Origin: Deltaproteobacteria bacterium
GTDB taxonomy: Bacteria; Desulfobacterota; DSM-4660; Desulfatiglandales; HGW-15
DNA length: 64,000 bases
Assembly (NCBI GenBank): GCA_019310525.1
Contig: JAFDEE010000034.1
Span: forward strand, 1-64,000
Direction of reading: 5' to 3'
Shown: one piece after another, positions 4,395 to 64,000 of the stretch
Layout of the letters: each line of letters starts with the position of its first letter
Position numbering within the stretch: the stretch's first letter is position 1
The notes under the pieces: model-generated
What the model saw: only the letters and a program-made list of their open reading frames with translations
Told to the model about the DNA's origin: nothing
Database searches by the model: none
Program-made: the position numbers and the translations under genes

Positions 4395-4404
4395 GATTTT
4401 TCTC

Positions 4405-6599: not shown

Positions 6600-6600
6600 A

Positions 6601-7485: not shown

Positions 7486-7596
7486 CAAATATATGAACTT
7501 AGTTCCAAACACCACATTTTGTTCAATCTCTGCGCCTGCATGTTCGTCTCTGCATACTGACAAAAGCGACACACACAGGCAGACGCGGACAGCTAG

Positions 7597-7700: not shown

Positions 7701-7755
7701 AAAATGGCTCAGCTATCTAATGATATTGTCCGGATCCCTGAATCTGAAACCGAGA

Positions 7756-9186: not shown

Positions 9187-9252
9187 AGTCGGCCCCCTTC
9201 ATTTCTCAAGTATCCTTATTTTTGAATAGTTTGGGTTTATGAGCAGACATCA

Positions 9253-10722: not shown

Positions 10723-10859
10723 TCACCAAACCCTATAGTCTTTATTCAACAGATAATAGGACTTTCGTTCTCATGTATGAAGTATAAGCAAATCGATCTC
10801 ACAAGACAAGGTGGGACAATAATCCTTAAAATCAGGCTATACCTGACAATACAATCCGG

Positions 10860-12930: not shown

Positions 12931-13018
12931 AACGAAATCGGTGTCTCCTGTTTTCTCAACAAAAAACCCGATTACGTTAGCGAAACATATATGTCTTTTC
13001 AATGAAAAAAGAGGGGGG

Positions 13019-13936: not shown

Positions 13937-13944
13937 CTTGTATC

Positions 13945-15801
13945 TCAGAAAGGGCCTGCAGGAAAACCCAGAGCCCTCGCGAATTTCGTGGAAAAATCCT
14001 TGTGAAGGGACAGTTCCCTGTGCTCACATCTCTTCGCCAGCATTAGCGCCTCATGAAACTGCTTCCTTGAAAGAAGGGCCCGTACGGCGCCCTTCCCCGC
14101 CGCGTTTCCCACGGGTTCGATGCGCTCGGGTGCAACATCTGGAAGCAGGCCGATGTTCAACAGGCTCCGGGGACGAATCCGGCTTCCAAAGGCACCTGCC
14201 AGCAATACACCGTCAAGTCGGGAGGCATCGAGGTCCAGCTCCTCCAGGAGGATCTCTATACCTGCACGGATGGCGCCCTTAGCCAATTGGAGTTCGCTGA
14301 TATCTTTCTGGGTCAGGGCGACTTCTGCTCTCCCTTCCCACAGCACGAACTTGTATCCCTTGTCGGTCCCCCGGATCCTTTCCCTCACCCCGGCGGACAC
14401 CTCCCTGGGACACGCATCAGGGGGCTTGATCTTCCCATCGGCGCCGATGATTCCGACCCTTACCATTTCCGCAACGGCGTCGATGAGTCCGGAACCGCAA
14501 ATTCCAGAGGGTTCCACACCCCCGATCACCGAGAGGGAGACCTCCCCGCCCAGGTTCACCTCGCACACCGCCCCTGGTTGAGCCCTCATGCCCTGACCGA
14601 TACTCCCTCCCTCGAAGGCCGGACCCGCGGCCGTTGAGCAGGTCAGCAACCTGCCGCCGGATGCCAGGGCCACCTCACCGTTTGTTCCGATGTCTATCGC
14701 GAGCCATGAACCCGGGCGGCGATGGAGGTCTGTGGCCAAGATCATCCCGATGGTATCCGATCCCACGTAACCGGCGATATTGGGCAACAGGAGAAAGGGG
14801 GTTCCCGGGGCAAGGGTTTCCAGGCCTAAGGTCCCGACAGTGGACATGGGGATTTTTGAAAAGGCCGGGACGAATGGAGAGGATGCCACGGCCTCGACGG
14901 GGACGGCCAGGAGCAGATGGCTCATGACCGTGTTTCCAACGACCGAAAGCAGATATACGCGCTCGGCCGGGATACCGGACCCCGCCAACAACTCCGCGAC
15001 GGTCTCATCTATGGTTCTGCAAAGGAGGTCTTTCAGTTCGAAAAGCCCCTGAGGCTCTTTCATAGTATAAGCGATACGGGTGAGGACATCAGCGCCTATG
15101 GTCCTCTGCCGGTTGGATGCGGCGACCGAATGCAGGATCTCCCCCTTCACCAGGTCCACCAGGTACCCCCCCACAGTGGTCGTTCCGATGTCCAGGGCGA
15201 TTCCACAAGACTCACCCGTCGTATCTCCCCCCTCCAGGGCGACCAGCCGTTCGCCCACGACCACGGAAGTCACCCGAAACGAATTGTCCCGCAGGATGCG
15301 GGGGATCTCCCGGATGAGAGGGAGGTCGATCTGAATACCCGCAGGGAGCAGATCCTGTAACCGCTCAAGATCGGGAACCTGGTCCTTGACTGTCGGTACG
15401 GAGAGATTCAGGCAGGTTTTCACAACATGGGAATCGATCTCCTGGAATGAATCGGCCCATTCTCCCTTGTCAGGCGACCGCATTCTTTCCGGGACCTCAG
15501 GCTCTACCTCGATGACGGCATCCCCCAGGAGGGTCCTACGGCAGAGGAGACATGCTCCTCTCTCGATTTGCTCGGGAGACAGGAACTCCTTTTCGGCGGC
15601 GCTCACCTCGCTCACTCGGCCCTCGATAATGCGGCCCAGGCATTTCCCGCACTTCCCGTTTCCCCCGCATACCGAATCCACCTCCAGGCCGACCTTGCGG
15701 GCCGCGTTCAACAGATTGGTCCCGGCCGGGAAAATTCCCTTATTCCCCCAGGGTAAAAAGGTGGCTGTTACGAAAATCTCCTTTTCATCCTTCCTGTGCA
15801 T
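13945..15801 (-). CDS. RACo-type corrinoid protein reactivator (2Fe-2S ferredoxin plus ASKHA ATPase)
   Basis: The 618-residue protein starts with a plant-type ferredoxin domain carrying C45, C51, C54 and C84 in the C-x5-C-x2-C-xn-C spacing. A linker leads to a large actin-like ATPase region with GIALDIGTTTVGGYLVD, LAIDIGTNGEVAL and the C-terminal VLLAGAFGSRI. This is the architecture of reductive activators of corrinoid proteins, which use ATP and an electron to return inactive Co(II) to Co(I). The start at 15801 follows AAGGAGGG; the frame extends 16 codons further without a site. It is nine bases from the UroD-like gene, consistent with an O-demethylase or other methyltransferase system. 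Confidence 0.88.
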   Translation of the reverse strand: MHRKDEKEIFVTATFLPWGNKGIFPAGTNLLNAARKVGLEVDSVCGGNGKCGKCLGRIIEGRVSEVSAAEKEFLSPEQIERGACLLCRRTLLGDAVIEVEPEVPERMRSPDKGEWADSFQEIDSHVVKTCLNLSVPTVKDQVPDLERLQDLLPAGIQIDLPLIREIPRILRDNSFRVTSVVVGERLVALEGGDTTGESCGIALDIGTTTVGGYLVDLVKGEILHSVAASNRQRTIGADVLTRIAYTMKEPQGLFELKDLLCRTIDETVAELLAGSGIPAERVYLLSVVGNTVMSHLLLAVPVEAVASSPFVPAFSKIPMSTVGTLGLETLAPGTPFLLLPNIAGYVGSDTIGMILATDLHRRPGSWLAIDIGTNGEVALASGGRLLTCSTAAGPAFEGGSIGQGMRAQPGAVCEVNLGGEVSLSVIGGVEPSGICGSGLIDAVAEMVRVGIIGADGKIKPPDACPREVSAGVRERIRGTDKGYKFVLWEGRAEVALTQKDISELQLAKGAIRAGIEILLEELDLDASRLDGVLLAGAFGSRIRPRSLLNIGLLPDVAPERIEPVGNAAGKGAVRALLSRKQFHEALMLAKRCEHRELSLHKDFSTKFARALGFPAGPF

Positions 15802-16201
15802 TTCGGAAAAGCCCTCCTTAATGTTCAATGCGGGTTTGTGCCCAGCCATAATCCCTATTTTGTCTTTTCTCGTTTTTTCCGAAATGTTCTTTTCTGTACC
15901 AAGCAGAATAGGAACAAATCAAAAAGTTACGAATAGCCACAGTCCAATATATCCTTCCAACCTGCAGGTAGAACACCATCGGACTCAGAGGCCAGGGAAA
16001 ATGCTTATTTGTAAATGCAAGAGACCAATGCTTGCCATGAGTGTTTTTCTCGGTTCTGATAAAACAAAAGAACTGTTTGTTTCACCAGGAGACAATACTC
16101 TTTTTTGATGCATAAAGGTGCAGCAGAAAAAATGCCAATGAAATACAGGAAAAAGCACAAGGGGCAGACTATCCGGGAAAAAGGCCGAACGATCCATAAT
16201 T

Positions 16202-16238
16202 TATTCTTATACATATCATAACAAAAATAAAATTGACA
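16202..16238 (+). promoter_or_regulatory. Candidate regulatory sequence shared with the UbiD operon
   Basis: The 22 bases at 16217-16238 (CATAAC.AAA.ATAAAATTGACA pattern) match 18 of 22 positions with 21948-21969 in front of the UbiD operon, both ending in TTGACA. ATTCT lies upstream of each. The TTGACA could be a -35 box, but no good -10 follows, as expected for an activator-dependent promoter. The start codon is about 830 bases away, so a long leader would be required. Confidence 0.35.
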
Positions 16239-16396
16239 TACTATTGCGATTTCATAACTATGACACAAGTTATCACTCACATTCACGGGTAACCTACCTT
16301 CAGACAGAAAATCCCTCTCAAGTCATGGAGAGGGTCATACCGGAATATGCGGCGGCCCTGAATTGGGGCCTGGTATCCATAACCGAAATTATAATG

Positions 16397-16550
16397 AGTG
16401 CCCATCCATAAATGGCCCTTTTGCCCAATCTCTGCGTCAGGCTCAGATTTTAATCCTCGAAATACTTCAATGTATTCCTGTGGTTAAAATCTTCGCCTTC
16501 CTTGACCTTGCTTGACCTTGAACAAAATTGCCTATTTATGGATGGACACT
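16397..16550. repeat. Type A modular miniature element
   Basis: The left end reads AGTGCCCATCCATAAATGGC and the right end is TATTTATGGATGGACACT, so the terminal repeats are near perfect. AATG on both sides (16393-16396 and 16551-16554) may be the target duplication. The core is in the same orientation as at 7141. It contains a duplicated CTTGACCTTG near its right side. Confidence 0.85.
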
Positions 16551-17070
16551 AATGAGGTCTTGGCCTCGTATAAACCGCTCCCCCGGGGGATTCATCTTCT
16601 TCAAAACCGTTGTTTCACCTGGGAGTCTGATTTCCATAGTTGCCGGAAAAAACCGATTTCATCGGATCTGCTTCATTATCGAACGCTTGTGACAAGAGAG
16701 TACTATTGCAGGGTCAATGGGCATCTCTGTTGTGTGGACATATATACTCAGGCTCCTATAGCACGCGATAAGGACCCTGATGGAAAGGAACGGAGGGCGG
16801 AGGGGCTTTTTCCGACCCCTTACATCAATAATTTCGGCTGATCCCGTCAATTCGACCGCCGGGATGGTTTTCCCCTTTGAGACCTTTAAAAAATCTTGAA
16901 GTATCGGACAAGCTTAGACAACGGGTGCGTAGGGCCAGCCGAAATAACGGGAGGGGCGGAATCCTTGAAGATCGTCCTGAAGGGAGGTGAAAACGGATAG
17001 ATAGGAAAATGGATACAACCGGATATTCCGAACAAGGATAACACTATTCAACAAAAGAGAGGGGGTCTTT

Positions 17071-18918
17071 ATGGCAGAAAAGAGGCAATTTCCTTTTGCA
17101 GAAGAGGTAGTACTGCCGCCTGAACTGGAGGGATGGGAAGAGATGTATCCGCCCCAGCGTCTTTTCAGTGAGGACCGGGCGGAATGGGAAAAGAAGCATT
17201 TCTGGTATCAGGACAAGATTCACGCACCCGAACCCATGTACCCGCTTGATGATATCTTTCAGGAGGCCTGGCAGATCGCTCTTTCCCAGTTTACGACACG
17301 GGTTTTCTGCATCCCCCCTGCCCAGGGAATCGCTCAAAGAATGTTTGGATGCTATATGTATATCTGTGCGATTGAACCGCCCCCTGGGGAGGTGATCCAA
17401 CAAAAGGCAGAGCTTTTTGAAAAGCGGGTCCCCTATACCTTTCAAAACTACTTGAAACAATTCGAGGTTTGGCTCGAAAGGTTCCAAAAACTGGGGAAGG
17501 ATATGCAGCAACTCCACGTCCCGGAGGAATTGCCTGATTTTGTCCCCGAAGAGGAGGTTATCCCGATACCCAAGGGAACCACTGATGCCTATGATCTGAT
17601 CGAGAGTTTCAACACGATCATCAATATGATCTTCAAGGCATGGCAGTACCATTTCCAGTATCTGAACCTCGCCTATCTTGCCTATCTGATGTTCGTGGAT
17701 ACTGCACGAAAGCTCTTTCCCGGCATTAAAGAAAGCACCATCGGGAAGATGGTTGCAGGAGCCGAGGTCTCGATGTTCCGTCCCGAGGAGGAGTTGTGTC
17801 GTCTCAGCAGGCTTGCAGCGGCCAAGTCTTCCGTAAAAGAAATACTCAAAGGGGACGCTTCTGCCGCGGACAAGATGAACGCTCTGAAGAATACCGATGA
17901 GGGGAGAGAATGGCTCGAAGAACTGGAAAAGGTCAAAGATCCCTGGTTCTTTGTTTCATGCGGGAGCGGATGGTATCATTACGAGGGAAGTTGGATCAAT
18001 AAAATGGATGTTCCCTTCAGCTACTTACAGAGTTACATAAACAGGCTGGAAAAGGGAGAGAAGATCGAACGGAACCTGAACGAAATCTCGGAAGAAAGGG
18101 AAAGGCTTGTTAGTGAGTATAAGGCCCTGATAAAATCTGATGACGACCGCAAATCCTTTGAAGACGCCTATAATGTGGTCCGGTCCATTTACAGATACGC
18201 TGAAGATCACCTCTTCTGGGTAGAACACTGGTTGCACACGATCTGGTTTGAAAAAATCAGGCAGTTCGGGAACATCCTGACCAAGTATGACCTGTTGCAG
18301 CAGGCCGACGACATATACCTCTTCAATCGTTTCGAAATCCCCATGTTGCTTGAGGATTTGGCCACAGCGTGGGCATGCGGGGTCGGCGTTCCCGCAAGGG
18401 GCCCCTACTGGAAGAAAAAGGCTGATAAGAGACGGAAGATCCTGGAGGCGGCCCGAAAGTGGAATCCTGTCCCCGCCCTCGGGGTGCCGCCTGAAGAGGT
18501 CTCCGAGCCCTTTACCCTCATGTTGTGGGGGGTCACCACCGATAAGGTGGACGAATGGCTGAAAGGCTCCACCGAGGTGGACACTGATGTAACCGAGATC
18601 AAAGGCTTTGCATCCTCCGCAGGTGTAGCAGAAGGGCCGGCAAGAGTGCTGAAGATGCTTGGAGACGTCGTGGATCTCAAGCCAGGAGAGATTATGGTCG
18701 CTCCCAGCACCAACCCCTCCTGGGCGCCCGTTTTTACCAAAATCAAGGCAGCGGTAACCGATATCGGAGGACTTACATCCCATGCGGCCATCGTTTCCAG
18801 GGAATACGGTCTGCCTTCCGTGACCGGAACCGGAGTCGCTACAACGGTAATCAAAACCGGGGATATTATCAGGGTGGACGGAAGTTCCGGAACCGTAACC
18901 ATAGTGAAGAGGGCTTAG
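17071..18918 (+). CDS. Phenylphosphate synthase alpha-like subunit (PEP-utilising phosphohistidine protein)
   Basis: The 615-residue (about 70 kDa) protein ends in a swivelling phosphohistidine domain of PEP synthase type, with the acceptor H571 in GGLTSHAAIVSREYG. The preceding 490 residues are helical and unlike the PEP-binding barrel. Known phenylphosphate synthase of Thauera aromatica has a 70-kDa subunit with this histidine and a 40-kDa ATP-binding subunit; the sizes and order fit here. It would carry the phosphoryl group from ATP to a phenolic hydroxyl. The ribosome site GAGAGGGGG supports the start. The substrate might be phenol or another phenolic, since the N-terminal region cannot be read for specificity. 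Confidence 0.8.
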   Translation: MAEKRQFPFAEEVVLPPELEGWEEMYPPQRLFSEDRAEWEKKHFWYQDKIHAPEPMYPLDDIFQEAWQIALSQFTTRVFCIPPAQGIAQRMFGCYMYICAIEPPPGEVIQQKAELFEKRVPYTFQNYLKQFEVWLERFQKLGKDMQQLHVPEELPDFVPEEEVIPIPKGTTDAYDLIESFNTIINMIFKAWQYHFQYLNLAYLAYLMFVDTARKLFPGIKESTIGKMVAGAEVSMFRPEEELCRLSRLAAAKSSVKEILKGDASAADKMNALKNTDEGREWLEELEKVKDPWFFVSCGSGWYHYEGSWINKMDVPFSYLQSYINRLEKGEKIERNLNEISEERERLVSEYKALIKSDDDRKSFEDAYNVVRSIYRYAEDHLFWVEHWLHTIWFEKIRQFGNILTKYDLLQQADDIYLFNRFEIPMLLEDLATAWACGVGVPARGPYWKKKADKRRKILEAARKWNPVPALGVPPEEVSEPFTLMLWGVTTDKVDEWLKGSTEVDTDVTEIKGFASSAGVAEGPARVLKMLGDVVDLKPGEIMVAPSTNPSWAPVFTKIKAAVTDIGGLTSHAAIVSREYGLPSVTGTGVATTVIKTGDIIRVDGSSGTVTIVKRA

Positions 18919-18936
18919 GGACTACGATTGATCCCG

Positions 18937-18966
18937 CCGGGGGTACACATTTACGTGTACCCCCGG
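18937..18966. promoter_or_regulatory. Intercistronic stem-loop between the two synthase genes
   Basis: Perfect 12-base arms CCGGGGGTACAC (18937-18948) and GTGTACCCCCGG (18955-18966) enclose a six-base loop. No T-run follows, so it is not a classical intrinsic terminator. It may stabilise the upstream message or set the ratio of the two subunits. Confidence 0.6.
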
Positions 18967-19005
18967 CACACCTGGAATTACGCGGCATCAAGAGAGGAGT
19001 ACGAC

Positions 19006-20082
19006 ATGCCGGAGCAATGGATATATTGGTTTAGCGAATTGGGCACAGAGCACAACGACATAGTGGGAAAGAAATGCGCCAATCTCGGGGAGCTGACCAA
19101 AGCCGGATTTCACGTGCCGCCCGGTTATGCCTTGGGTGTAGCGGCATACGAAAGGTTCATGAAGGAGACGGGGGCCTCTGAGCGGGTCCTGAAATATTTG
19201 GAAGGATTCCATGCAGACCCGGAAAACGTGGAGGACACTCCGAAATATGAAACCGCCTCCAAGGAAATAAGAGCTATCGTTGAATCCATTGACATGCCCC
19301 CTGACATGGAAGAGACTGTGAAGAAGTATTATTCCCAACTGTGTGAGGAAACAGGGATAGAAAATCAGTTCGTTGCAACACGATCTGCAGGGCCGGCCAG
19401 CCATCCGGGACAGTACGAAACTTATCTGAATGTAAGCGGCCCCGACGACGTTGTTCAGCATATCAAGCGCGTATGGTCAAGTACTTTCAATACCCGTTCC
19501 ATCATCGCCAGGGCGAGGCTTGGTCTCCCGCTCCACCATGATCCGATCGGTGTTGCCGTCCTGACCATGGTCGATGCAAAGGCTGCAGGGGTGATCCTGA
19601 CCGTGAACCCGGTCAACGGCGATGAATCGAAGGTGGCCATCGAGGCGGCTTTCGGGTTCGGCGAAGCGGTCGTCTCCGGGAATGTTACCCCGGACCGGTA
19701 CCTGGTCGACAAAGTGACCCTTGAGATCGAAGAAAAGGTTATCTCCGACAAGGGTGCTGAATTCGTTTACAACCCCGAGACGAGGGAAATGGAGTATAAA
19801 GAACTGCCTGCCGACAAGAGGAAACTTCCCTGTCTCGAAGACATAGAGATACTGGAATTGACAAAGATCGCCAAGAAAATAGAGGCCCATTTCGGTTGCC
19901 TGCAGGATATAGAATTCTCAGTGTCCATGAGTCTGCCTTTTCCTGAAAACATCTTTTTTGTCCAGGCGCGCCCTGAGAGCGTATGGGGCAAGAAGAAAAA
20001 AGAATCGGTTCTGGGGAAAAAGAGCGGCTTCGAACTGCTCTTTGAAAAGGCCACTACGCCCATAAAATTGAAAACCGATTAA
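19006..20082 (+). CDS. Phenylphosphate synthase beta-like subunit (PEP synthase ATP-grasp domain)
   Basis: The 358-residue (about 40 kDa) protein is equivalent to the N-terminal, ATP-binding part of PEP synthase. The family opening is seen in GKKCANLGELTKAGFHVPPG, the nucleotide region in ATRSAGPASHPGQYETYL, and the end in QDIEFSVS..FFVQARPES. It would phosphorylate the histidine of the preceding subunit with ATP. GAGAGG places the start at 19006, 87 bases after the first subunit and beyond a stem-loop; the frame is open to 18928 but without a site. Splitting of PEP synthase into two such proteins is characteristic of phenylphosphate synthase. Confidence 0.83.
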   Translation: MPEQWIYWFSELGTEHNDIVGKKCANLGELTKAGFHVPPGYALGVAAYERFMKETGASERVLKYLEGFHADPENVEDTPKYETASKEIRAIVESIDMPPDMEETVKKYYSQLCEETGIENQFVATRSAGPASHPGQYETYLNVSGPDDVVQHIKRVWSSTFNTRSIIARARLGLPLHHDPIGVAVLTMVDAKAAGVILTVNPVNGDESKVAIEAAFGFGEAVVSGNVTPDRYLVDKVTLEIEEKVISDKGAEFVYNPETREMEYKELPADKRKLPCLEDIEILELTKIAKKIEAHFGCLQDIEFSVSMSLPFPENIFFVQARPESVWGKKKKESVLGKKSGFELLFEKATTPIKLKTD

Positions 20083-20093
20083 GGAGACTGAAA

Positions 20094-20618
20094 ATGTCGG
20101 AAAGCAGCATGTTGAACGGAAAGAAGATTCTTATCGTGGATGACGAGCCGGATGTTCTTGAAGTCCTTGAGGAGTACCTTAAGATGTGCCGCCTTGTCAA
20201 AGCCACCAGCTTCGAAGAGGCAAGGGATCTTCTCGAATCCCAGGATTTCGATGCCGCGATCCTTGATATAATGGGCGTTAAAGGCTATGACCTCCTGGAA
20301 ATCGCAACCCGCAAGAAAATACCCGCCCTGATGCTGACGGCCCATGCTTTCACTCCTGAAGACATGGTGAAATCCGTCAAGGAAGGAGCAGCCTCTTACG
20401 TACCAAAAGAGGAAATCACGAGAATCGAGGATTTTCTGAACGACATCTTTGTGGCCCGGGCAAAGGGCGAGAGTCCCTGGATCTCGTGGCAACAACGAAT
20501 GCCGGGAACCTATTTCGAGATGAAGTTCGGAGCGGCCTGGAAGGCGGCGAGTCAGGAATTCCGAGATGCGCTGAAGGCCAGCATTAAATCCAGAGCAAAA
20601 ACCTTAAAAAAAGAATGA
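20094..20618 (+). CDS. Receiver-domain protein in the synthase operon
   Basis: Residues 9-125 form a receiver with VDDEPD, acceptor D58 in AAILDIMG, threonine in ALMLTAHAF and lysine in SYVPKEE. The remaining 50 residues are a helical tail, PWISWQQRMPGTYFEMKFG and a basic end, with no DNA-binding motif. AAGGAGA precedes ATG, 11 bases after the beta-like subunit, so it is the third gene of the operon. In Thauera the third synthase gene encodes a CBS-domain subunit that stimulates activity; here a receiver takes that position. Regulation of the synthase by phosphorylation is possible but is inference. Confidence 0.82.
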   Translation: MSESSMLNGKKILIVDDEPDVLEVLEEYLKMCRLVKATSFEEARDLLESQDFDAAILDIMGVKGYDLLEIATRKKIPALMLTAHAFTPEDMVKSVKEGAASYVPKEEITRIEDFLNDIFVARAKGESPWISWQQRMPGTYFEMKFGAAWKAASQEFRDALKASIKSRAKTLKKE

Positions 20619-20717
20619 ACACCGCGCTGCAAGCAGTGGAGTGTCTTGAGGGGAATTGAAAAGGAGCCAAACCCGCCTTCGCCCAGAAGCACTTCGGCGC
20701 ATTCACCCCGCCATGGC

Positions 20718-20815
20718 GAGACCTTTGAAAAACGTTCAATTTTGTTCAAGGTCAAGCCTCCGGCCTGTAGGGCTTACGCCCAGGAGAGGAAGGTGTAAAT
20801 TTTAACCGCCCCCCT
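20718..20815. repeat. Partial type B modular element
   Basis: The left end GAGACCTTTGAAAAACG and adjacent TTCAATTTTGTTCAAGGTCA match the other type B copies, followed by the GC-rich module GCCTCCGGCCTGTAGGGC and the first part of the core, TAAATTTTAACCGCC. The right half of the core and the right terminal repeat are missing, so this is a truncated copy. It lies between the receiver gene and the end of the LysR gene. Confidence 0.7.
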
Positions 20816-20858
20816 TGGGATGCCGAGCGGGACAGGCATCCATGAAAAGATAAAGGCA

Positions 20859-21803
20859 TCAGGAAAAATTATTGGAATCAGGGAAAAGAGCCCGGACTCC
20901 GCCCAGGGGTCTCTTCCCGGAGGCCAGATGGTCGAGGGTTTTAAGGAAGGCTTGTGCAGAAGGGGAAAGGGGTTGATTTTTCAAGTACACTATATTCACT
21001 TCAAGGTAGATGTTTTCTCCTTTGATGGGAACTGAGGCCAACCTTCCGGCGCGCAACTCAGCCGATACAGAGGCCTTTACGAGAAAAGAAATACCGTCCC
21101 CCCTCTCCACAAGCTGCTTTATGAATTCCGCGTTGGACGTTTCAATCAGGATATTGGGAACATATCCATTTCGTTTGAAAAGCTCGTTTATGAGCTTCCG
21201 GGTTCCGGATCCGAGTTCTTTCATTATTATCGGTTCATGGGACAATTCCTCTACTGTTACAAATGGTTTTTGCTTGAAAGGATGGTTCGGTGAAATGATC
21301 AGGACCAATTCCTCCTGGGAGAAGGGAACAAATTCCACCTCCGGGCTTTCCTCCACCTTTGCGACAATGGCGACCTCGTTTCTCATCTCCATCAAGCTAT
21401 GGACCATGGATTGTGAACTTCCTTCGTCCAGGTGGATTTTGATCTGCGGGTGCCTCTCGTGAAAGTCCCTCATCAAGTGTGGCATAAGGTAGCGTGCGTA
21501 AGTCTTGGAAGTACCTATGCGAAGGATCCCTCGCTTAAGCTTTCTCATATCTTCGAGAAGTCCCTCAATCTCTTTTTCATAGTCGAAAATCTTACAAGTG
21601 TAATTATAAAGTGTCTTGCCTTCTTCCGTGAGAAAAATTTTTCTCCCCTTTTTTTTAAAGAGCTTCACTCCGCAATAGTCTTCAAAAAGTTTCATCTGGG
21701 CCGTTACGGCGGGTTGGGTGATAAACAACTCTTTTGCGGCCTGGGTGAAACTCAGGTTCTTTGCGACACAGTGGAACACACGAAGCTGGTTGAAATTAAT
21801 CAT
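20859..21803 (-). CDS. LysR-family transcriptional regulator
   Basis: A 314-residue LysR protein. The N-terminal winged helix-turn-helix is plain in NFNQLRVFHCVAKNLSFTQA and LFITQPAVTAQMKLFEDYCG, followed by an effector-binding region of type 2 periplasmic fold (KTYARYLMPHLMRDFHERHP and LIISPNHPFKQKPFVTVEEL). ATG at 21803 has GGAG ten bases upstream; an in-frame GTG five codons earlier is possible. It is divergent from the UbiD operon and lies between the two halves of the aromatic module, so it is the best candidate for their regulator, with an aromatic compound or CoA intermediate as effector. Confidence 0.92.
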   Translation of the reverse strand: MINFNQLRVFHCVAKNLSFTQAAKELFITQPAVTAQMKLFEDYCGVKLFKKKGRKIFLTEEGKTLYNYTCKIFDYEKEIEGLLEDMRKLKRGILRIGTSKTYARYLMPHLMRDFHERHPQIKIHLDEGSSQSMVHSLMEMRNEVAIVAKVEESPEVEFVPFSQEELVLIISPNHPFKQKPFVTVEELSHEPIIMKELGSGTRKLINELFKRNGYVPNILIETSNAEFIKQLVERGDGISFLVKASVSAELRAGRLASVPIKGENIYLEVNIVYLKNQPLSPSAQAFLKTLDHLASGKRPLGGVRALFPDSNNFS

Positions 21804-21931
21804 TTTGAAAAACTCCACACCGGCTCGGGAAGGCCGGCCGTAACTCCCTGGATCTCCCCATCATAAACAATGGGGCACCAGATTAAACTCCATTGAGCAA
21901 CGGGTATCCGCGCCGACTTTTCACCTATAAC

Positions 21932-21969
21932 ATTCTATTATGAATAACATAAGAATTATGAAATTGACA
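21932..21969 (+). promoter_or_regulatory. Candidate LysR operator and activator-dependent promoter
   Basis: An imperfect AT-rich dyad with ATTCT at 21932-21936 and AGAAT at 21952-21956 lies in the divergent LysR-UbiD spacer. TTGACA follows at 21964-21969. The last 22 bases match the region at 16217-16238 upstream of the synthase operon at 18 positions. LysR proteins bind such interrupted dyads between divergent genes. No strong -10 is visible. Confidence 0.4.
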
Positions 21970-22286
21970 ATGCCCGGGTAATAGGCCATTCAAAAAAGCA
22001 GCGGCAACGTGTATCTCATGAAACAGTTTTTATGATTTCGGCGTTTCTCCTGTGAACCGTTGACAGGCACAACCACACTTTCTCAACCCGTCAACCAAAG
22101 AATCAAGCGACTCGTTCTATGGATCCGGTATTTTTTTCAATCATCGGCCCATGAAACAGTCATATCCAAACTTTGTAACCCTTTATCAATGAGGGGCGTT
22201 TGATGGGAAGTGAGCTGATGCCCGGGACTTCACCCGGCCTTTGAGCACTAAAAATCTTATCATTTTTCCTAAAGGAGGTATCTCCC

Positions 22287-23705
22287 ATGAAGGATCTCAG
22301 GGATTATATCGCAAAGGTAGAGGAAATAGGTCAGCTTCGCCGGGTAAAGGCCGAGGTGGACTGGGACCTCGAACTCTCCCACATCGCCAAAATCGTCGAG
22401 GAAAAGAGCGGACCCGCCCTCCTTTTCGAAAACGTGAAAGGATACTCGAGCCCGGTCTTGACCGGCGCCTTCGGCACCACCCAGAGGCTGGCCGTCATCC
22501 TTGGGAAAAACCCCAACCTCTCCATGGTGGAGCTTACGAAGGAATGGGTGGAAGCCACCGTCAAGGAACTTATTCCGGCGAAGGAAGTCAAGGACGGGCC
22601 TATCTTTGAGAATATTCTCGAGGGCGATAAGGTGGATACCTTTGCCTTCCCTTCACCAAGGTTTTACGAACTGGACGGAGGTCGTTACTTCGGCACGGCG
22701 GTTTTCATGGCCATTCAGGATCCTGAAACAGGTGACATCAACCTAGGCACTTACCGCATGGGGGTCCTCGACGATAAGACAGTGGGGGTTCAGATCCTCA
22801 AAGGGAAAAAGGGTGACAGGATCCTGAAGAAGTACGGGAAACAAGGCAAAAAGATGCCCGCATGCGCCATTATAGGCGGTGATCCCCTCCATATCTTTGC
22901 AGGGGCCGCCACAGTAGCCAATGCAAAAAGCGGATACGACGTGGTCAGTTCCCTGCGAGGCTCCCCTGTGGAAACCGTGAAAGGTCATCTCACGGGTCTT
23001 CCATTCCCGGCGACGGCCGAGATTGTGCTGGAAGGGGAAATCGACCCTGAGCACCTGAGAGAGGAGGGACCTTTCGGTGAGTATACGGGCTACTACACGG
23101 AAGAACTCATCAAGCCCATTCCCAAACCAGCCCTTGAAGTCAAGCGCATCTACTTCAGGAACAATCCTATCCTCTGGGAGACGAGCGTGGGGAGACCCGT
23201 GGGCGATCAGCATATGCTCTATGCCTTTGTGCGTAACGCAAGCCTGTGGACGGATCTGACCCGAATGCAGATCCATGGAATCAAATCGGTATATACGATG
23301 CCGGAGGCCTCGGGACGCTTCTGGGTGGTCGTCTCCGTCAAGCAGATGTATCCGGGTCACGCGGACCAGGTGGGCGCGGCGGTCATTGCAAGCAACACGG
23401 GGACATACGGAATCAAGGGTGTGATTATCGTGGACAGCGATATCGATGCAGACGACCTTCCCAGGGTGTGGTGGGCGCTTGGGACCCGCTATAACCCGGC
23501 CCGGGGCACGCAGATAATCAACAGAGGCAGGGCTACACCTCTGGATCCGTCCCTTGCAGCGGATGAGAACAAGTTCATCACTTCGCGGATCATCCTGGAT
23601 GCCACTATACCCTTTGAGTGGAAGGTCAAACCCACGGAGATCAAGCTCACTGAGAGTGTTTTGGAAAAGGTAAAGGCCAGATGGTCGGAATACGGCATCG
23701 ATTAA
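22287..23705 (+). CDS. UbiD-family decarboxylase/carboxylase (phenylphosphate carboxylase-like subunit, copy 1)
   Basis: The 472-residue protein is a full-length UbiD-family enzyme that would use prenylated FMN. The catalytic triad expected from the family is present: R157 in LGTYRMGV, and E260 with E265 in EEGPFGEYTGYY. AAAGGAGG lies directly before the start. It is the first gene of the operon and is followed after 12 bases by a HAD gene. Phenylphosphate carboxylase has two UbiD-like subunits of about 54 kDa; this protein fits one of them. UbiD proteins also handle other aromatic acids, so a hydroxybenzoate or other aryl carboxylase remains an alternative. Confidence 0.88.
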   Translation: MKDLRDYIAKVEEIGQLRRVKAEVDWDLELSHIAKIVEEKSGPALLFENVKGYSSPVLTGAFGTTQRLAVILGKNPNLSMVELTKEWVEATVKELIPAKEVKDGPIFENILEGDKVDTFAFPSPRFYELDGGRYFGTAVFMAIQDPETGDINLGTYRMGVLDDKTVGVQILKGKKGDRILKKYGKQGKKMPACAIIGGDPLHIFAGAATVANAKSGYDVVSSLRGSPVETVKGHLTGLPFPATAEIVLEGEIDPEHLREEGPFGEYTGYYTEELIKPIPKPALEVKRIYFRNNPILWETSVGRPVGDQHMLYAFVRNASLWTDLTRMQIHGIKSVYTMPEASGRFWVVVSVKQMYPGHADQVGAAVIASNTGTYGIKGVIIVDSDIDADDLPRVWWALGTRYNPARGTQIINRGRATPLDPSLAADENKFITSRIILDATIPFEWKVKPTEIKLTESVLEKVKARWSEYGID

Positions 23706-23717
23706 AGGGAGGTCGAA

Positions 23718-24275
23718 ATGGTCTTCGATAAGGATATAGAAGCGGCGAAGGAAAGGGCGAGAAAGGTCAAGTTGTTTGCCCATGATATTCACGGTGTGCT
23801 CACCCAGAACAACTTTTTTTGCGACATCGAGGGAAGAAGAAGATACGGATTCTGGCACATGGACGGATTCGGAGATCTTTCTCTTTCAGCCAACGGGATC
23901 CGTATCGCCTTCCTGGATTCAACTTCCATCGACGATGAAGGATTTTACCGGGCCAAAGAATTGAAACTTGACAAGTACTACTACAAGGTGAAGGACAAGG
24001 TGGGAAAGCTCATCGAACTCGAAGAGGAACTAGGGATTACAGCCGAAAACGTTTGTTATGTCGGTTGCGAGGTCACGGACCTCGAGGCCATGAAACACTC
24101 AGGATTTTCGGTGGCCACGGCCGATGCTATAGACGAGGCCAAGGAAATTGCGGATTACATCACCAATGCGCCCGGAGGAAGAGGACCCATAAGGGAAACC
24201 TGCGAGTTCATCCTCCGGGCCATGGGAGAGTGGGAGAACTGGGTCGAAAAGGTCACCAAAATGGGATACAAGTAG
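23718..24275 (+). CDS. HAD-superfamily protein, carboxylase delta-like (copy 1, degenerate active site)
   Basis: A 185-residue, capless HAD protein of the KDO-8-phosphate phosphatase type, the family of the 18-kDa delta subunit of phenylphosphate carboxylase. Motif I reads HDIHGVLTQN: the nucleophile aspartate is kept but the acid-base aspartate two residues on is histidine. Motif II is FLDSTS and motif IV is GCEVTD, where GD is usual, so one magnesium ligand is also changed. It may therefore have lost phosphatase activity or serve as a structural partner. AGGGAGG precedes the start. The next gene is its paralogue. Confidence 0.82.
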   Translation: MVFDKDIEAAKERARKVKLFAHDIHGVLTQNNFFCDIEGRRRYGFWHMDGFGDLSLSANGIRIAFLDSTSIDDEGFYRAKELKLDKYYYKVKDKVGKLIELEEELGITAENVCYVGCEVTDLEAMKHSGFSVATADAIDEAKEIADYITNAPGGRGPIRETCEFILRAMGEWENWVEKVTKMGYK

Positions 24276-24293
24276 TCGGGAAGGGGGGAAAGG

Positions 24294-24836
24294 ATGGTAA
24301 GCACGGAAACGGCTATCGAAAAGGCAAGACAAGTCAAATTCGTCATCCTTGACATACACGGGGTCCTTACGGACAACACACTCTACTACACGGATGACGG
24401 GAAGAAGTCGGAGTGTTTCTCCCTGGCGGACCGCCTCGGGTGTATCTCGTTGATGGAAGGGGGTATCGGCGTGGCCTTCCTGACCAGTAAGATTTCGAGA
24501 GCCGATCAACAGGTCGGGGAAATCTATACGGTCCCGCCCGATCGGCTCTGGGGAACATCCGCCAAGATAGGAAAACTCGATGAATTCGAAAAAGAGACGG
24601 GTCTCCAGGATCAGGACTTCTGCTATGTAGGAGACGAGATGATTGATCTCGGCATCATGAAACGGGTCGGATTTCCCGTTGCCCCGGCCGACGGCGCCAT
24701 AGAGGCCAGGAATGTTGCTGCATACATCACCAAGGCACCGGGAGGCAGGGGAGTGGTGAGGGAGATCGCCGAGTTCATCTTGAAGGCCCAAGGGAAGTGG
24801 GACACCGTGATCCAAAAAATCTCCCAACACGGCTGA
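24294..24836 (+). CDS. HAD-superfamily protein, carboxylase delta-like (copy 2)
   Basis: The 180-residue protein is a paralogue of the preceding HAD gene and shares its ending, YITxAPGGRGxxRE. Motif I is LDIHGVLTDN, again with histidine replacing the acid-base aspartate, but motif IV is the conventional GDEMID. In phenylphosphate carboxylase the 18-kDa subunit is needed for use of phenyl phosphate, while the UbiD core alone only exchanges CO2. This better-preserved copy is the stronger candidate for that role. The start has a GGGGGGAAAGG site. A 184-base gap with no gene follows before the next UbiD. Confidence 0.83.
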   Translation: MVSTETAIEKARQVKFVILDIHGVLTDNTLYYTDDGKKSECFSLADRLGCISLMEGGIGVAFLTSKISRADQQVGEIYTVPPDRLWGTSAKIGKLDEFEKETGLQDQDFCYVGDEMIDLGIMKRVGFPVAPADGAIEARNVAAYITKAPGGRGVVREIAEFILKAQGKWDTVIQKISQHG

Positions 24837-25020
24837 CATCTTCCAAGGCAAGGAGTTGAACTCCGAAGACCCTTATAATGTTTAAGGGCTTCACCGTTTT
24901 AGAAACCAAGAAGGATATTCAAACCTTTCAGGGGCGGCGTCGATGGGCCTTCTACTCCGGTCACGGAGACGGAAGCGCCTTTTCAGAAATTCCCCTGGCG
25001 GGACAGGACGGGAGGATTTT

Positions 25021-26466
25021 ATGGCCTATACTTATCCCAAAGACAACAGGGAATTTATCAACCTCTTAAAAAAATATGGAGATCTGGTTACGGTGGAACA
25101 GGAGGTGGATTGGGATCTCGAGATGGGTGCGATTGTGCGCCGGGTTTGCGAAAAAAAGCTTCCCTCCCCCTATTTCAAAAAGATCAAGGACTATCCCGGT
25201 TTCGAGGCCCTTGGGGCACCCCTTGCCACCTATCGGAGGCTGGCCATCGCCATGGGATTGGGGAGCGATGCTTCCATTCCCGAAATCGCGGAGGAGTACG
25301 TCCGGAGGACCACGGCCGAGCCCATACCCCCTGTTCTGATCGACCGGAAAGATGCACCCTGCAAGGATAACATCCTGATGGGAGAAGAAGCGGATCTTTT
25401 CAAGCTCCCGGCTCCCATGGTCCACGACGGTGATGGGGGACGGTATCTCGCCACTTGGCATTTCGTAGTATCAAAGGATCCCGAGACTAAAGATATCAAC
25501 TGGGGCATGTACCGGCAAATGGTCTTCGACGAGAAGACCATGGTCGGCCCCGTTCTCCCCTTCTCCGACATGGGAAAGATGTTTTACGGGAAATTCGTTC
25601 CCAAGAACGAACCCATGCCCTTTGCCACCGTGATCGCCTGCGACCCCCTCTCAGGGGTGGCGGCCAGCGCCCCTTCCCCTATTCCTGAAGACCAGTTCGC
25701 GGGCATGTTGATGGGAGAACCCGTCGAGCTGGTCAAGTGCGAAACCTGTGACCTAGAGGTACCCGCCCACGCAGAGATCATTATCGAAGGGGAAGTCATC
25801 CCCAACATGATGATCGAGGAGGCGCCCTTCGGCGAGTACACGGGATACCGCACCTCCCCGAGGGAACCCCGGACGGTTTACAGGGTCAAAGCGATTACCT
25901 ACCGTAACAATCCCATTCTCACGGTCTCCAACATGGGGGTTCCCACGGACGAGGGACAACTTCTACGGTCCTTCTCCCTGGGACTGGAAATGCGAAAGCT
26001 CCTGGAAAGCCAGGGGATTCCCATTACCGGCGTTTACATGCTTCCCGAATCCACCCACCACCTCGTGGTTGTCGGGGTGAAACCCGCTTACAGCGGGATC
26101 GCATCCCAGATCGCCGGGCTGATATTCGGAAGCAAACTGAGTCCGTGGTTTCACATGGTAATCGTCGTGGACCATGAAACCGACATTTACAGCAAGGACG
26201 AAGTCATCCATGCCCTTTCCACCAAATGCCATCCCATCCGGGGCATCCACAAGTACGACCAGGCTCCCGGAACTCCCCTCAATCCTTATGCCTCACCGGA
26301 AGAACGGAAATGGAGCCGCGGAGCCAAGGTGCTCTTCGATTGCACCTTTCCCCTGGACTGGCCGAAGTCCGACCTGCCCATCAAGGTGGCCTTCAATACG
26401 GTCTATCCCAGAGAAATCCAGGAAAGGGTCTTGTCGAATTGGAAAAATTACGGTTTTCAGGACTAG
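25021..26466 (+). CDS. UbiD-family decarboxylase/carboxylase (copy 2)
   Basis: This 481-residue UbiD protein has R165 in WGMYRQMV and E267 with E272 in EEAPFGEYTGYR, so all three expected catalytic residues are kept. GGGAGG precedes ATG at 25021; the frame is open to 24943 but that stretch has no family resemblance. It starts with ATYP-type N-terminal DLVTVEQEVDWDLEMGAIVR, closely parallel to copy 1. It is separated from the gamma-like gene by 12 bases. With copy 1 it could form the alpha/beta pair of a phenylphosphate carboxylase. Confidence 0.88.
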   Translation: MAYTYPKDNREFINLLKKYGDLVTVEQEVDWDLEMGAIVRRVCEKKLPSPYFKKIKDYPGFEALGAPLATYRRLAIAMGLGSDASIPEIAEEYVRRTTAEPIPPVLIDRKDAPCKDNILMGEEADLFKLPAPMVHDGDGGRYLATWHFVVSKDPETKDINWGMYRQMVFDEKTMVGPVLPFSDMGKMFYGKFVPKNEPMPFATVIACDPLSGVAASAPSPIPEDQFAGMLMGEPVELVKCETCDLEVPAHAEIIIEGEVIPNMMIEEAPFGEYTGYRTSPREPRTVYRVKAITYRNNPILTVSNMGVPTDEGQLLRSFSLGLEMRKLLESQGIPITGVYMLPESTHHLVVVGVKPAYSGIASQIAGLIFGSKLSPWFHMVIVVDHETDIYSKDEVIHALSTKCHPIRGIHKYDQAPGTPLNPYASPEERKWSRGAKVLFDCTFPLDWPKSDLPIKVAFNTVYPREIQERVLSNWKNYGFQD

Positions 26467-26478
26467 GAGGAAAGACCA

Positions 26479-26757
26479 ATGGCGGGAAAAGAATTTGACA
26501 CCTTTTTTTTAACGGACCCGGAAAAGATCCCCCAGGAGCAGGAAATTGAAATGATCCTCAGGGACCTCTCCCCCGGCGACAGAAGATATAAATACCGGAG
26601 TTTTTTTGCAAAGGCAATGGTTTCCGATCTGGAATCCAAATATCCGGATCGGCTTTGGGTCAGACTAGGGAGGGGACAACTCCTGGAGAAGCCTTGGTCG
26701 GTTAAGGTCTTGGAGGAATTGAAAAAGTTTTCCGACGTTGAGGGGGGAACATCTTGA
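26479..26757 (+). CDS. Small subunit, phenylphosphate carboxylase gamma-like
   Basis: A 92-residue soluble protein with no membrane segment, signal or cysteine. Its end, ending in GGTS, overlaps the start of the third UbiD gene. Phenylphosphate carboxylase has a unique 10-kDa subunit encoded beside its UbiD subunits; size and position fit and the sequence (LSPGDRRYKYRSFFAKAMVS, then RLWVRLGRGQLLEKPW) looks like that family, but the assignment rests mostly on context. AGGAGGA precedes the start. Its stop TGA is shared with the TTG start of the next gene, so the two are translationally coupled. Confidence 0.72.
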   Translation: MAGKEFDTFFLTDPEKIPQEQEIEMILRDLSPGDRRYKYRSFFAKAMVSDLESKYPDRLWVRLGRGQLLEKPWSVKVLEELKKFSDVEGGTS

Positions 26758-28115
26758 GAGCGATTAGGGGTCTGAAAGAATTCGCCCTGGTTTTAGAAGA
26801 TCAGGGAGAACTCCAGCGGGTCTCCCTTCCCCTTGATCCCCGCTATGAGATTGCGGCTCTGCTCTCTGAAATGGGAAAACGAGAGGCTCCCGCCCTCCTG
26901 TTTGAGAAGGTCAAGGGATGCCAGACAGCTCTCATCGGAAATCTCCTGGGGACAAAGAAGCGCCTCGCCCTGGCCCTGGGAATTCCCGAAAGGGATTTGC
27001 TTCGTGGGCATCTCCCGAACCTGGAAAAGAAAATTCCACCTGTTCCGATCCAAGAAGAACCACCCTCCCGGACCCTTTTGACCGCCGAACAAGGTCTGGA
27101 CATAGGAGAAGTTCTTCCTGTTCTTACCCACTACGTCCGGGACTCCGGTCCCTATATCACAGCAGGTATTACTTCGGCCCGGGATCCGCGGGACGGCACC
27201 ATGGGAAGGGGACTTCACCGAATGGAAATCCGAGGTAAGGAAGCGCTCGGTATTTCATTGCTCAACCCGCCCCTGGCAGATATTTACGCCTACCACCGGA
27301 AGCATGGCACAAAGATGGAAGTGGCTACCGCCATAGGTGTGGATCCGGTCATCCTCTTCGCTACCGTTCTCAAGGTCCCCCAGGGGACGGATAAGCTGGC
27401 CGTGGCAGGCGGGCTGATGGGAGAAGCCGTATGCACGGAACGTGCGAAGACGGTGGATCTGGAGGTGCCCGCCTACTCGGAGATCATCATCGAGGGGGTC
27501 ATCGACCCAATGAGCGAAGAAAGGGACGGGACCCTGGGCGAGGCAAGCGGTTACTATATGTCCTTTTCAAGCAGCCCCACGATCCGTGTCACTGCTATCA
27601 GCTTCAGGGAAGACCCCTATTTCCAGGCTATTCTTCCCTGGAGTCTGGAAGTGGATAATCTCATGTCCCTGATTCATGGGTTGCATTTCATTCCCAAGAT
27701 GATGAAAGAAATACCTTCCCTCCTGGACATCCACCTTGTTCCGGGAACCTTCGGCTCCCACGTCGTGATGTCCATTGAGAGCGAAAATAGGGCGGAAATC
27801 CGGAGGGCCTTGACCCTGGCCCTCTCGTTTACCAGTATAAAGAAGGCTGTCATAGTGAATGGAGACATCGATCCCAGGGACTCGCTGGAGGTGGAATGGG
27901 CCCTGGCGACCCGGTTCCAGGCCGATCGTGACCTCATCGTCATCCCGTGCGTCAAGGGCCAACCCATCGATCCCTCTTCAGGAGAAGGCTTTGGTACGGC
28001 AAAGCTTGGCATGGATGCAACACGCCCCCGAAAGGAAGGGTTCGAAAAGGTCGACTTCCCCCAGGAGATCAAGGGACGATTGGGCTCTTTCATCGAGGCA
28101 ATCAGAAAGGAGTAA
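26754..28115 (+). CDS. UbiD-family decarboxylase/carboxylase (copy 3, divergent)
   Basis: The 453-residue protein is shorter and more divergent than copies 1 and 2. R156 (GLHRMEIR) and E263 (LGEASGYY) are present, but the position of the first catalytic glutamate is aspartate, D258, in RDGTLGEA. It starts at TTG, in the TTGA overlap with the small subunit gene, with GGGGGG upstream. The change could alter proton transfer or mark a different substrate, for example another aryl acid. Thauera phenol clusters also hold an extra ubiD-like gene beside ubiX, which is where this copy lies. Confidence 0.85.
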   Translation: MRAIRGLKEFALVLEDQGELQRVSLPLDPRYEIAALLSEMGKREAPALLFEKVKGCQTALIGNLLGTKKRLALALGIPERDLLRGHLPNLEKKIPPVPIQEEPPSRTLLTAEQGLDIGEVLPVLTHYVRDSGPYITAGITSARDPRDGTMGRGLHRMEIRGKEALGISLLNPPLADIYAYHRKHGTKMEVATAIGVDPVILFATVLKVPQGTDKLAVAGGLMGEAVCTERAKTVDLEVPAYSEIIIEGVIDPMSEERDGTLGEASGYYMSFSSSPTIRVTAISFREDPYFQAILPWSLEVDNLMSLIHGLHFIPKMMKEIPSLLDIHLVPGTFGSHVVMSIESENRAEIRRALTLALSFTSIKKAVIVNGDIDPRDSLEVEWALATRFQADRDLIVIPCVKGQPIDPSSGEGFGTAKLGMDATRPRKEGFEKVDFPQEIKGRLGSFIEAIRKE

Positions 28116-58400: not shown

Positions 58401-59975
58401 ATGAAGGTTTGCAGCGTGTCCGAGATGAGGGATTTGGATCGGACGGCCATCGAGACATACGGAATCAAGGATGAACTGTTGATGGAGAACGCCGGTATCG
58501 GACTCTTTACCGTCATTCAGCAGAAGATGGAGGTCAGGAACGGGGAATTTTGCATATTCTGCGGTCTGGGTAATAATGGTGGAGACGGCTTCGTCATCGC
58601 CAGAAAGATCCATTCGAACGGCGGGAGGGCCAAGGTCTTGATCCTGGGCAGGCGGGACAAATTCAGGGGTTCGGCCAGATCGAACCTCGACATCCTTTCC
58701 AGGCTTCCCGTGGAAGTACGGGAAATCACATCCTCCGAATCCGTCCGGGAAGATCTCCGGCATTGTGATGCAGTAGTGGATGCCATCTTCGGAACCGGTC
58801 TTGCCAGGCCGGTAGAGGGCCTGTACCGGGAGGTCATTGAGCTGATCAATACCTGCGGTAAGACTGTGTTCAGCGTGGACATTCCATCGGGGATCAGCGG
58901 GGATACAGGCCAAGCACTGGGGACTGCGGTTAGGGCGGACTGCACGGTGACTTTCGGGCTTCCAAAGTACGGGAACATGCTTTTCCCCGGCTACGAACAC
59001 TGCGGGGAACTCTACGTGACCCATATCTCTTTTCCGCCCATCCTTTACGAGGATGATCGCCTCAAGGTGGAAATCAATCCCATTCCCGCACTTCCCACCA
59101 GGAAAAAGGACGGCCACAAGGGGAGTTTCGGCGACGTTCTTTTCATCGCCGGGGCCTCCGGCTATTTCGGGGCCCCTTACTTTGCGGCCCTCTCCTTCCT
59201 GAAGGCCGGCGGCGGATATTCACGGCTGGCGGCCCCCCGTTCAATAACCCCCTTCATCGCAAACAAGGGGAGTGAAATCGTGTTCGTGCCCCAGGAAGAG
59301 ACCAAGGCCGGAAGCCTGTCCCTTGAGAACGAGGCCGCCCTTGTGGAGCTTGCGGAAAAAATGGATATGGTGGTCCTGGGTCCCGGACTCTCCCTGGCGG
59401 AAGAGACCCGCCGACTTGCCGAAAATCTTGCCAGGGCGATCCCAAAACCGCTCCTTATCGATGGGGACGGCATTACGGCCCTCTGCGCGGACTTAGATAT
59501 CATCAAGAAAAGAGAACATCCCACCATCCTCACGCCCCACCTCGGGGAGATGTCCAGGATCACGGGCATGAAAATTCCCGAGGTGGATCGGAATAAAATC
59601 AGCATACTCAGGGAGACGGCCGGAAAACTCGGAGCGACCATTGTTCTGAAAGGAGCCCATTCTCTCGTGGGAAGTCCCGACGGGCGGGTCTTCATCAACA
59701 CCAGCGGCAACTCCGGCATGGCCACGGCCGGTTCGGGAGACGTTCTAACAGGTACAATCGCCGCCATGTTCGGTCTCGGCCTGCCCGTTCCGGAGGCTGT
59801 CAGGACCGGGGTATTCATTCACGGTCTTTCCGGTGACCTGGCCGCCCTGGAGAAGGGAGAGGACGGGATCACAGCCCAGGACATCCTGGACCATCTGCCT
59901 ATGGCATTAAAGACAGTGCGTGAAGGAATTTCCTCTCCTTTGAAGAAAAGATACGCGGGGGCGCGTATCATTTAG
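58401..59975 (+). CDS. nnr: Bifunctional NAD(P)HX epimerase/dehydratase
   Basis: The 524-residue enzyme has the YjeF N-terminal epimerase (residues about 1-215, FCGLGNNGGDGFVIARKIHS, FSVDIPSGISGDTGQALGTA) and the C-terminal ADP-dependent hydrate dehydratase (about 230-520) with KGSFGDVLFIAGASGYFGAP, LIDGDGITALCADLD and NSGMATAGSGDVLTGTIAAM. It repairs damaged NADH and NADPH hydrates. The start at 58401 follows GGAGG; the open frame from 58317 is not supported. The protein is complete. Confidence 0.95.
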   Translation: MKVCSVSEMRDLDRTAIETYGIKDELLMENAGIGLFTVIQQKMEVRNGEFCIFCGLGNNGGDGFVIARKIHSNGGRAKVLILGRRDKFRGSARSNLDILSRLPVEVREITSSESVREDLRHCDAVVDAIFGTGLARPVEGLYREVIELINTCGKTVFSVDIPSGISGDTGQALGTAVRADCTVTFGLPKYGNMLFPGYEHCGELYVTHISFPPILYEDDRLKVEINPIPALPTRKKDGHKGSFGDVLFIAGASGYFGAPYFAALSFLKAGGGYSRLAAPRSITPFIANKGSEIVFVPQEETKAGSLSLENEAALVELAEKMDMVVLGPGLSLAEETRRLAENLARAIPKPLLIDGDGITALCADLDIIKKREHPTILTPHLGEMSRITGMKIPEVDRNKISILRETAGKLGATIVLKGAHSLVGSPDGRVFINTSGNSGMATAGSGDVLTGTIAAMFGLGLPVPEAVRTGVFIHGLSGDLAALEKGEDGITAQDILDHLPMALKTVREGISSPLKKRYAGARII

Positions 59976-62934: not shown

Positions 62935-63279
62935 CTAATAACATGCCCCCGGGCCCGGCCCTGCCAGGGGTAACCGTTCCCCTGTCTTCTCCTCATCCCT
63001 TTCCAGGATACAGCGGCATGATCCTTCCCGACCCAGCGCAGTATTGATAACGGCGGCGGCACATCCCACCCCCGCCTCAACGGTTATTGCGCCGAAGGGG
63101 CAGTTCCGCATGCAGGCACCGCATTCCATACATGCGTCCCTGTTCCCGATCCATACTTTTCCGTTTTGCCTGACCAGAACCTCTTGTGGGCAGACCACAA
63201 GACACATTCCGCACCCTGTACACTTCCCTTCATCCAGGGAGAGGGTCACAACATCTTTCAAGTAAATCAGATTTGCCAT
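62935..63279 (-). CDS. hgcB: Mercury methylation ferredoxin HgcB
   Basis: The 114-residue protein has two 4Fe-4S motifs, C20-x2-C23-x2-C26-x3-C30 and C50-x2-C53-x2-C56-x3-C60; the second reads CMECGACMRNCP, characteristic of HgcB. C73 (VGCAA) follows, and C88/C90 (SCRC) come near the end, corresponding to the conserved extra cysteine and the C-terminal cysteine pair of known HgcBs. HgcB passes electrons and probably mercury to HgcA. The start at 63279 has GAAGG before it. It is 11 bases from the end of hgcA. The C-terminal tail after residue 90 is unusually long. Confidence 0.92.
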   Translation of the reverse strand: MANLIYLKDVVTLSLDEGKCTGCGMCLVVCPQEVLVRQNGKVWIGNRDACMECGACMRNCPFGAITVEAGVGCAAAVINTALGREGSCRCILERDEEKTGERLPLAGPGPGACY

Positions 63280-63290
63280 ATCATTAACCT

Positions 63291-64000
63291 TCAGGCAAGC
63301 AAGCGGGATCCCAACCACAGGACGAGACCCGTTATGCCGGCCCCTATTTCAGCCGGAACGGCCCATTTCATCTCCTTCCTGACCCCCGAAAGGGAGGTAT
63401 AGGTAGAGGCCCCGGTAAAATTCATGGCGAAATATCCGGCCAGAGCAGGCACCAGGAAAAACCAACCCAGGATCTCCAGGCTATCGGGCCAACCCTCTAT
63501 CCGCCACCCACGGTATAAGGCCAAACAACCAGCGCACAGGATCCCCATACACATGCCCTTTAAGGTGAAGGCCCTGCCAGGCAACCAAGGAAGGAAAAGG
63601 GGGGTGAAAATGACGCCTGCCGCAAGGGCGGTAAATAGAGCATATACAGCGAAGAGGCCCGAGTCCATCGCCGTTGCCCAGAATCCCTCCGGTCCTCCCA
63701 TCCCCCCCAGCAAGAAAAATACCGGGGCTACGATCAAGGTCCATTTCAAGGCCGTCACGAATTCGACCGGAATCAAGACGGCCCTTTCCCAGGTCGTGAA
63801 GGTCTTCTTCCTCATCTCAGGGGTCGCATGAAAGTGCCCGTCAAGAAATGCAGGAAGATCCTCCGCCTTGATGGGCCCGTATATCACCTTGAATCCTGTG
63901 CTCTTACTCACGAGGTGTGCTGCCACACCCGGGGCCCCCAGCTGGGGCAGGATGATCAGCCTGTGGGAGACCAGTTCCTTGAGCCTCATGGACTCGATAC
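63291..64000 (-). CDS. hgcA: Mercury methylation corrinoid protein HgcA, C-terminal part (continues beyond window)
   Basis: The frame is open to the right edge, so the first part of the gene lies outside. The visible 236 residues start with the end of the cobalamin-binding domain (SHRLIILPQLGAPGVAAHLV, STGFKVIYGPIKAEDLPAFL) and continue with about five transmembrane helices, ending MNFTGASTYTSLSGVRKEMK and WLGSRLLA, all typical of HgcA. The diagnostic cap-helix motif NVWCAAGK would be in the missing part. HgcA transfers a methyl group from its corrinoid to Hg(II). It is followed directly by hgcB. Confidence 0.9.
   Translation of the reverse strand, partial: IESMRLKELVSHRLIILPQLGAPGVAAHLVSKSTGFKVIYGPIKAEDLPAFLDGHFHATPEMRKKTFTTWERAVLIPVEFVTALKWTLIVAPVFFLLGGMGGPEGFWATAMDSGLFAVYALFTALAAGVIFTPLFLPWLPGRAFTLKGMCMGILCAGCLALYRGWRIEGWPDSLEILGWFFLVPALAGYFAMNFTGASTYTSLSGVRKEMKWAVPAEIGAGITGLVLWLGSRLLA

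Follow-up and report, generated by a model that had tools for sequence, protein, structure and literature searches.

A probably functional hgcAB gene pair in an uncultured Desulfobacterota lineage and the uncommon cysteine pattern of its HgcB tail

Results

Identification of hgcA and hgcB

The window, that is, the whole 64,000-nucleotide stretch of DNA that was analysed, carries at its edge the genes hgcA and hgcB, which are complete (when hgcA is followed beyond the edge), conserved and, as judged from their sequences, probably functional. By analogy with characterised systems, the genes probably let a sulfate-reducing bacterium convert inorganic mercury to methylmercury; we consider it very likely that they form a functional pair. 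Both genes are present, with the order, diagnostic residues, family scores and overall fold of hgcAB, and they evolve under constraint. With this locus, an uncultured Desulfobacterota lineage that bears dsrA joins the probable methylmercury producers. The two genes are

63291–64000, minus strand: 3′ part of hgcA, 235 codons plus stop (open reading frame with motif; profile score)
62935–63279, minus strand: hgcB, 114 residues from ATG; encodes a dicluster ferredoxin in which Cys73 is followed by a 41-residue tail ending ACY

The window edge cuts hgcA, and the remainder is carried by the contig (G000:C34; 66,425 bases), on which the full open reading frame reaches position 64481 (ATG) or 64508 (TTG) and encodes 396 or 405 residues, respectively. 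Full-length HgcA scores 450 bits (4.4e-135) against the NCBIfam model for HgcA (NF040863; curated equivalog cut-off, 275 bits), and the window fragment alone scores 267.3 bits against the same cut-off; HgcB scores 117.5 bits (1.8e-34) against NF040864 (curated equivalog cut-off, 99 bits), and the profile search of the genome detected no rival HgcB, the next best protein scoring 48 bits. At these expectation values (4.4e-135 and 1.8e-34), the identity of both proteins is far beyond chance; the first-pass annotation had placed an hgcA–hgcB pair at the window edge from the letters alone, and the scores of both proteins bear it out. The peptides that it had taken as diagnostic of the HgcA C-terminus (LPQLGAPGVAAHLV, STGFKVIYGPIKAEDLPAFL and MNFTGASTYTSLSGVRKEM) and the CMECGAC of HgcB are all encoded on the minus strand. 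It had also proposed a search for NVWCAAGK upstream of the fragment, with absence of the motif pointing to a non-methylating paralogue; the part of hgcA outside the window encodes GINVWCAAGKG (residues 150–160 in the 405-residue reading, with the cap-helix cysteine as Cys155). HgcA also keeps the residues that are invariant in nine relatives.

The hgcB start lies 11 bases past the hgcA stop; the listed 127-residue open reading frame from 63318 uses a GTG upstream of the hgcB ATG. Both CxxCxxCxxxCP motifs of HgcB are complete, that is, all eight cluster cysteines and Cys73 are present (cysteines 20, 23, 26, 30, 50, 53, 56, 60 and 73), and these nine positions are numbered identically in HgcB of Pseudodesulfovibrio mercurii (Desulfovibrio desulfuricans) ND132 (ND132 numbering from PMC7305189). 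The order hgcA–hgcB, the cap-helix cysteine and the five-helix membrane domain are likewise the same in ND132. A promoter-like sequence (a consensus match only) lies just upstream of hgcA, and no known RNA elements were found near the gene.

In the AlphaFold model of HgcA (mean pLDDT, 73), the C-terminal part (residues 239–404) folds into five long helices, in keeping with the membrane domain expected of HgcA. The best fold match of the model is the published HgcAB model (9a0b_A), followed by corrinoid iron-sulfur proteins; by both sequence and predicted fold, the corrinoid domain matches the large subunits of the latter (2h9a, 2ycl). The first 52 residues are modelled with very low confidence; relative to ND132, the window HgcA is extended at its N-terminus by about 50 residues, which are predicted to be without structure. 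The N-terminal extensions of the HgcAs of several relatives (L013, L015, L018 and L009) contain adjacent cysteines (CC), and that of the window HgcA has single cysteines (TPCP, SSCRG).

The genome and the origin of hgcAB

The genome is a 3.78-Mb metagenome-assembled genome (MAG; 96.8% complete, 3.1% contamination). It contains dsrA (570 bits), and the organism is therefore probably a sulfate reducer. A search for merB gave no match, nor did its control searches. The hgcA gene is found in 22 of the 85 genomes of its Desulfobacterota order and in 6/17 of its family; identical hgcA sequences are common to members of the order and MAGs labelled Desulfobacteraceae or Deltaproteobacteria (L041, L042, L076). 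The collections searched contain no close relative of the window hgcAB, the closest HgcA being 67% identical. By tree path, the nearest HgcA is that of Desulfobacteria bacterium SG_15_bin16 (L044), 67% identical; the sister relation is weakly supported (89/56).

In the HgcA tree, the window HgcA lies within the HgcAs of a different family (f3) in the order, and its own family's HgcAs are dispersed over the tree. Horizontal transfer has been reported widely for hgcAB (PMC7438021), and the scattered tree suggests it as a possibility here, at a level short of statistical support: holding the own-family HgcAs as one clade is not rejected, either in the full tree (p-AU 0.256, six sequences) or in a smaller tree (p-AU 0.203 with five, 0.185 with three). 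Transfer specifically from family f3 was considered and set aside; the tree is scattered, but the own-family clade is not rejected and the sisterhood with L044 is weak. A plasmid origin was also discarded (no tblastn match in PLSDB).

The grouping of HgcA with f3 members could also be read as a sign of contamination, with a contig that comes from a different family in the order and an hgcAB foreign to this genome. Two further features point in this direction, the low GC content (0.483) over the first 20 kb of the contig and a gene located 3 kb from hgcAB:

58404–59972, plus strand: YjeF-type gene of the f3/f4 type (57–73% identity there), which we take to be NAD(P)HX epimerase/dehydratase

The identity of this gene to its counterparts in nearly all own-family members is 37–41%; however, the genome shows no second copy, and from these comparisons replacement by transfer is possible. 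The D-Ala-D-Ala ligase (Ddl), D-aminoacyl-tRNA deacylase (DTD) and RtcB encoded on the contig have their best matches in the genome's own family, and the composition of the 20–66 kb segment agrees with that of other contigs (compared on sampled stretches of the genome). Because these three proteins match the family and the composition fits outside the first 20 kb, the contig is apparently part of this genome, and we regard contamination as unlikely.

The HgcB tail

The C-terminal region of HgcB was compared among 83 distinct HgcBs from relatives, the window HgcB included:

62935–63015, minus strand: C-terminal part of HgcB, Ser87-Cys88-Arg89-Cys90 through Cys113-Tyr114 (compared with 82 further distinct HgcBs)

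The first-pass annotation had described an unusual tail of about 24 residues following a cysteine pair, with another cysteine next to the last residue. The 24 residues after C-x-C and the second-to-last cysteine are as described; the "pair", however, is really C-R-C, in which the two cysteines are not adjacent, and the length of the tail is ordinary (41 residues after Cys73; median of the 83 HgcBs, 35, with nearly all at 16–42). The uncommon feature, of mild interest, is the cysteine pattern. In the usual tail, a variable linker separates S-C-C-C from a C-C that is terminal or nearly so; in the window HgcB the pattern is S-C-R-C…A-C-Y, with three cysteines, none adjacent. The positions of Arg89 and Tyr114 are Cys in 78% and 80% of relatives, respectively, and tails that lack an adjacent CC are found in just 3/83 HgcBs (those of the window, L108 and L118; the pair is present in 80/83), with the qualification that assembly errors in the MAG could account for single residues. 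The L044 HgcB also lacks a terminal pair (it ends TYCVE); unlike the window HgcB, it keeps S-C-C-C. In ND132, HgcB has 95 residues and a terminal Cys94-Cys95 pair, compared with 114 residues, C-R-C and a terminal C-Y here.

Cysteines in the C-terminal tail are common in members of NF040864; their number varies, and they are not strictly defining. Among 2432 HgcBs, mostly metagenomic, at least one cysteine follows Cys73 in 1943 and at least two in 1317 (PMC7305189). In ND132 HgcB, Cys73 is essential; replacement of just one terminal Cys, whichever it is, has no effect, and replacement of both leads to a 95% loss of activity (PMC7305189). Because three tail cysteines remain, the window HgcB falls within the known range and would be expected to work; together with the activity of the ND132 single-terminal-Cys mutants (PMC7305189), this makes methylation still the best prediction. 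Whether a natural HgcB devoid of any adjacent tail cysteine pair supports mercury methylation is, in our estimate, an evenly balanced question. If it does, C-x-C and a single cysteine near the terminus are what Hg(II) delivery to the corrinoid depends on, and the adjacent pair is common in HgcB yet not required; HgcB variants of this sort offer a natural test of the extent to which mercury delivery needs the cysteine-rich tail.

Constraint on hgcAB

The loss of tail cysteines could instead reflect relaxed selection on an impaired or decaying hgcAB, in an organism with little or no mercury methylation. In addition to Arg89 and Tyr114, where about 80% of relatives have Cys, the end branch of HgcA is long for its clade (0.46), and relative-rate tests of hgcA are significant for several comparisons when L136 is the outgroup; with L135 as the outgroup, however, none is significant. 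There is no frameshift and no stop, and HgcA retains 115 of the 120 columns that are invariant in 12 relatives (the relatives themselves retain 113–117 of about 118); the gene is not visibly decaying. Relative to the L044 hgcA, codon positions 1, 2 and 3 differ at 27%, 18% and 60%, respectively; with differences highest at third positions, hgcA is under purifying selection as judged from this comparison, and the codon positions lend no support to relaxed selection. With three cysteines left in the tail and a single terminal cysteine having sufficed in ND132 (PMC7305189), we judge impairment to be quite improbable.

A paralogue with another methyl-transfer role, for instance a corrinoid iron-sulfur protein or a fusion of the HgcAB-like type, is highly improbable: HgcA does share homology with these families (73 to 195 bits), and eight related genomes carry HgcAB-like fusions, but here hgcA and hgcB are separate, HgcA scores 450 bits against its own model and 194.6 bits against the fusion model (NF043039; cut-off, 285 bits), its cap helix reads NVWCAAGKG where fusions have NVWCA-TGG, and it has the predicted five-helix membrane domain. 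The fusions (NF043039, with CpaM, NF043040) share a related corrinoid domain and ferredoxin; they are single fused proteins with a cap helix ending TGG and an adjacent methyltransferase gene, and neither NF043039 nor NF043040 has a match above cut-off in this genome. The large subunit of corrinoid iron-sulfur proteins (CdhD/AcsC type), with its homologous corrinoid-binding domain (2h9a, 2ycl), is without the membrane domain and cap-helix cysteine of HgcA; this genome encodes it separately, on contig C78. In the fusion loci L020–L025, the cap helix is NVWCA(A/S)TGG or NVWCG(A/S)TGG and a class I methyltransferase is encoded alongside, a steady pairing; the methyltransferase in L020 scores as CpaM (NF043040).

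Discussion

Proposed function

In the published scheme, the Cys-ligated corrinoid of HgcA is methylated, with SAM as the donor in vitro, HgcB reduces the corrinoid, and Hg(II) and methylmercury are shuttled by Cys73 and the cysteines of the HgcB tail (PMC7305189, PMC11588087). All parts that this scheme requires are present in the window pair, to which we extend its chemistry, that is, corrinoid binding, electron transfer and mercury methylation, from the published ND132 work. The N-terminal domain of HgcA would bind the corrinoid, with Cys155 (405-residue reading) as the lower axial cobalt ligand, and the five predicted transmembrane helices would anchor the protein; the methylated cobalt would then donate its methyl group to Hg(II), and HgcB would supply electrons that bring the cobalt back to Co(I). 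Cys73 and the tail cysteines of HgcB may handle and shuttle Hg(II) and methylmercury; in the window HgcB, the tail would work with C-x-C and the lone near-terminal cysteine instead of adjacent pairs. Apart from this tail, the window hgcAB is in line with known hgcAB, its patchy distribution included.

Genome neighborhood and other loci on the contig

Upstream of hgcA and divergent from it is an azlC-like gene, which scores below the curated cut-off; a small gene follows it at the place of azlD. Downstream of hgcB and convergent with it is a gene for an EamA transporter. The neighborhood is not conserved: of the flanking genes tested (AzlCD, EamA, RlpA, YjeF and LarB), none accompanies hgcAB in the other loci retrieved, the exception being a distant AzlCD pair in L115.

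Window positions 1–20000, where the GC content is 0.483 and tetranucleotide agreement is below that of the rest of the contig and of the sampled genome, hold several response-regulator-like genes. A RACo-type activator of corrinoid proteins, which may serve HgcA or a different corrinoid protein, is encoded on the same contig (13945–15849, minus strand), 47 kb from hgcAB. The region that follows contains

17071–18918 and 18928–20082, plus strand: split pair with PEP-utilizers and PPDK_N domains (domain search)
22287–23705, 24943–26466 and 26754–28115, plus strand: three tandem UbiD-family genes, located after the PEP-utilizers/PPDK_N pair

and, taken together (17071–28115, plus strand), resembles a phenylphosphate synthase and carboxylase cluster of anaerobic phenol breakdown.
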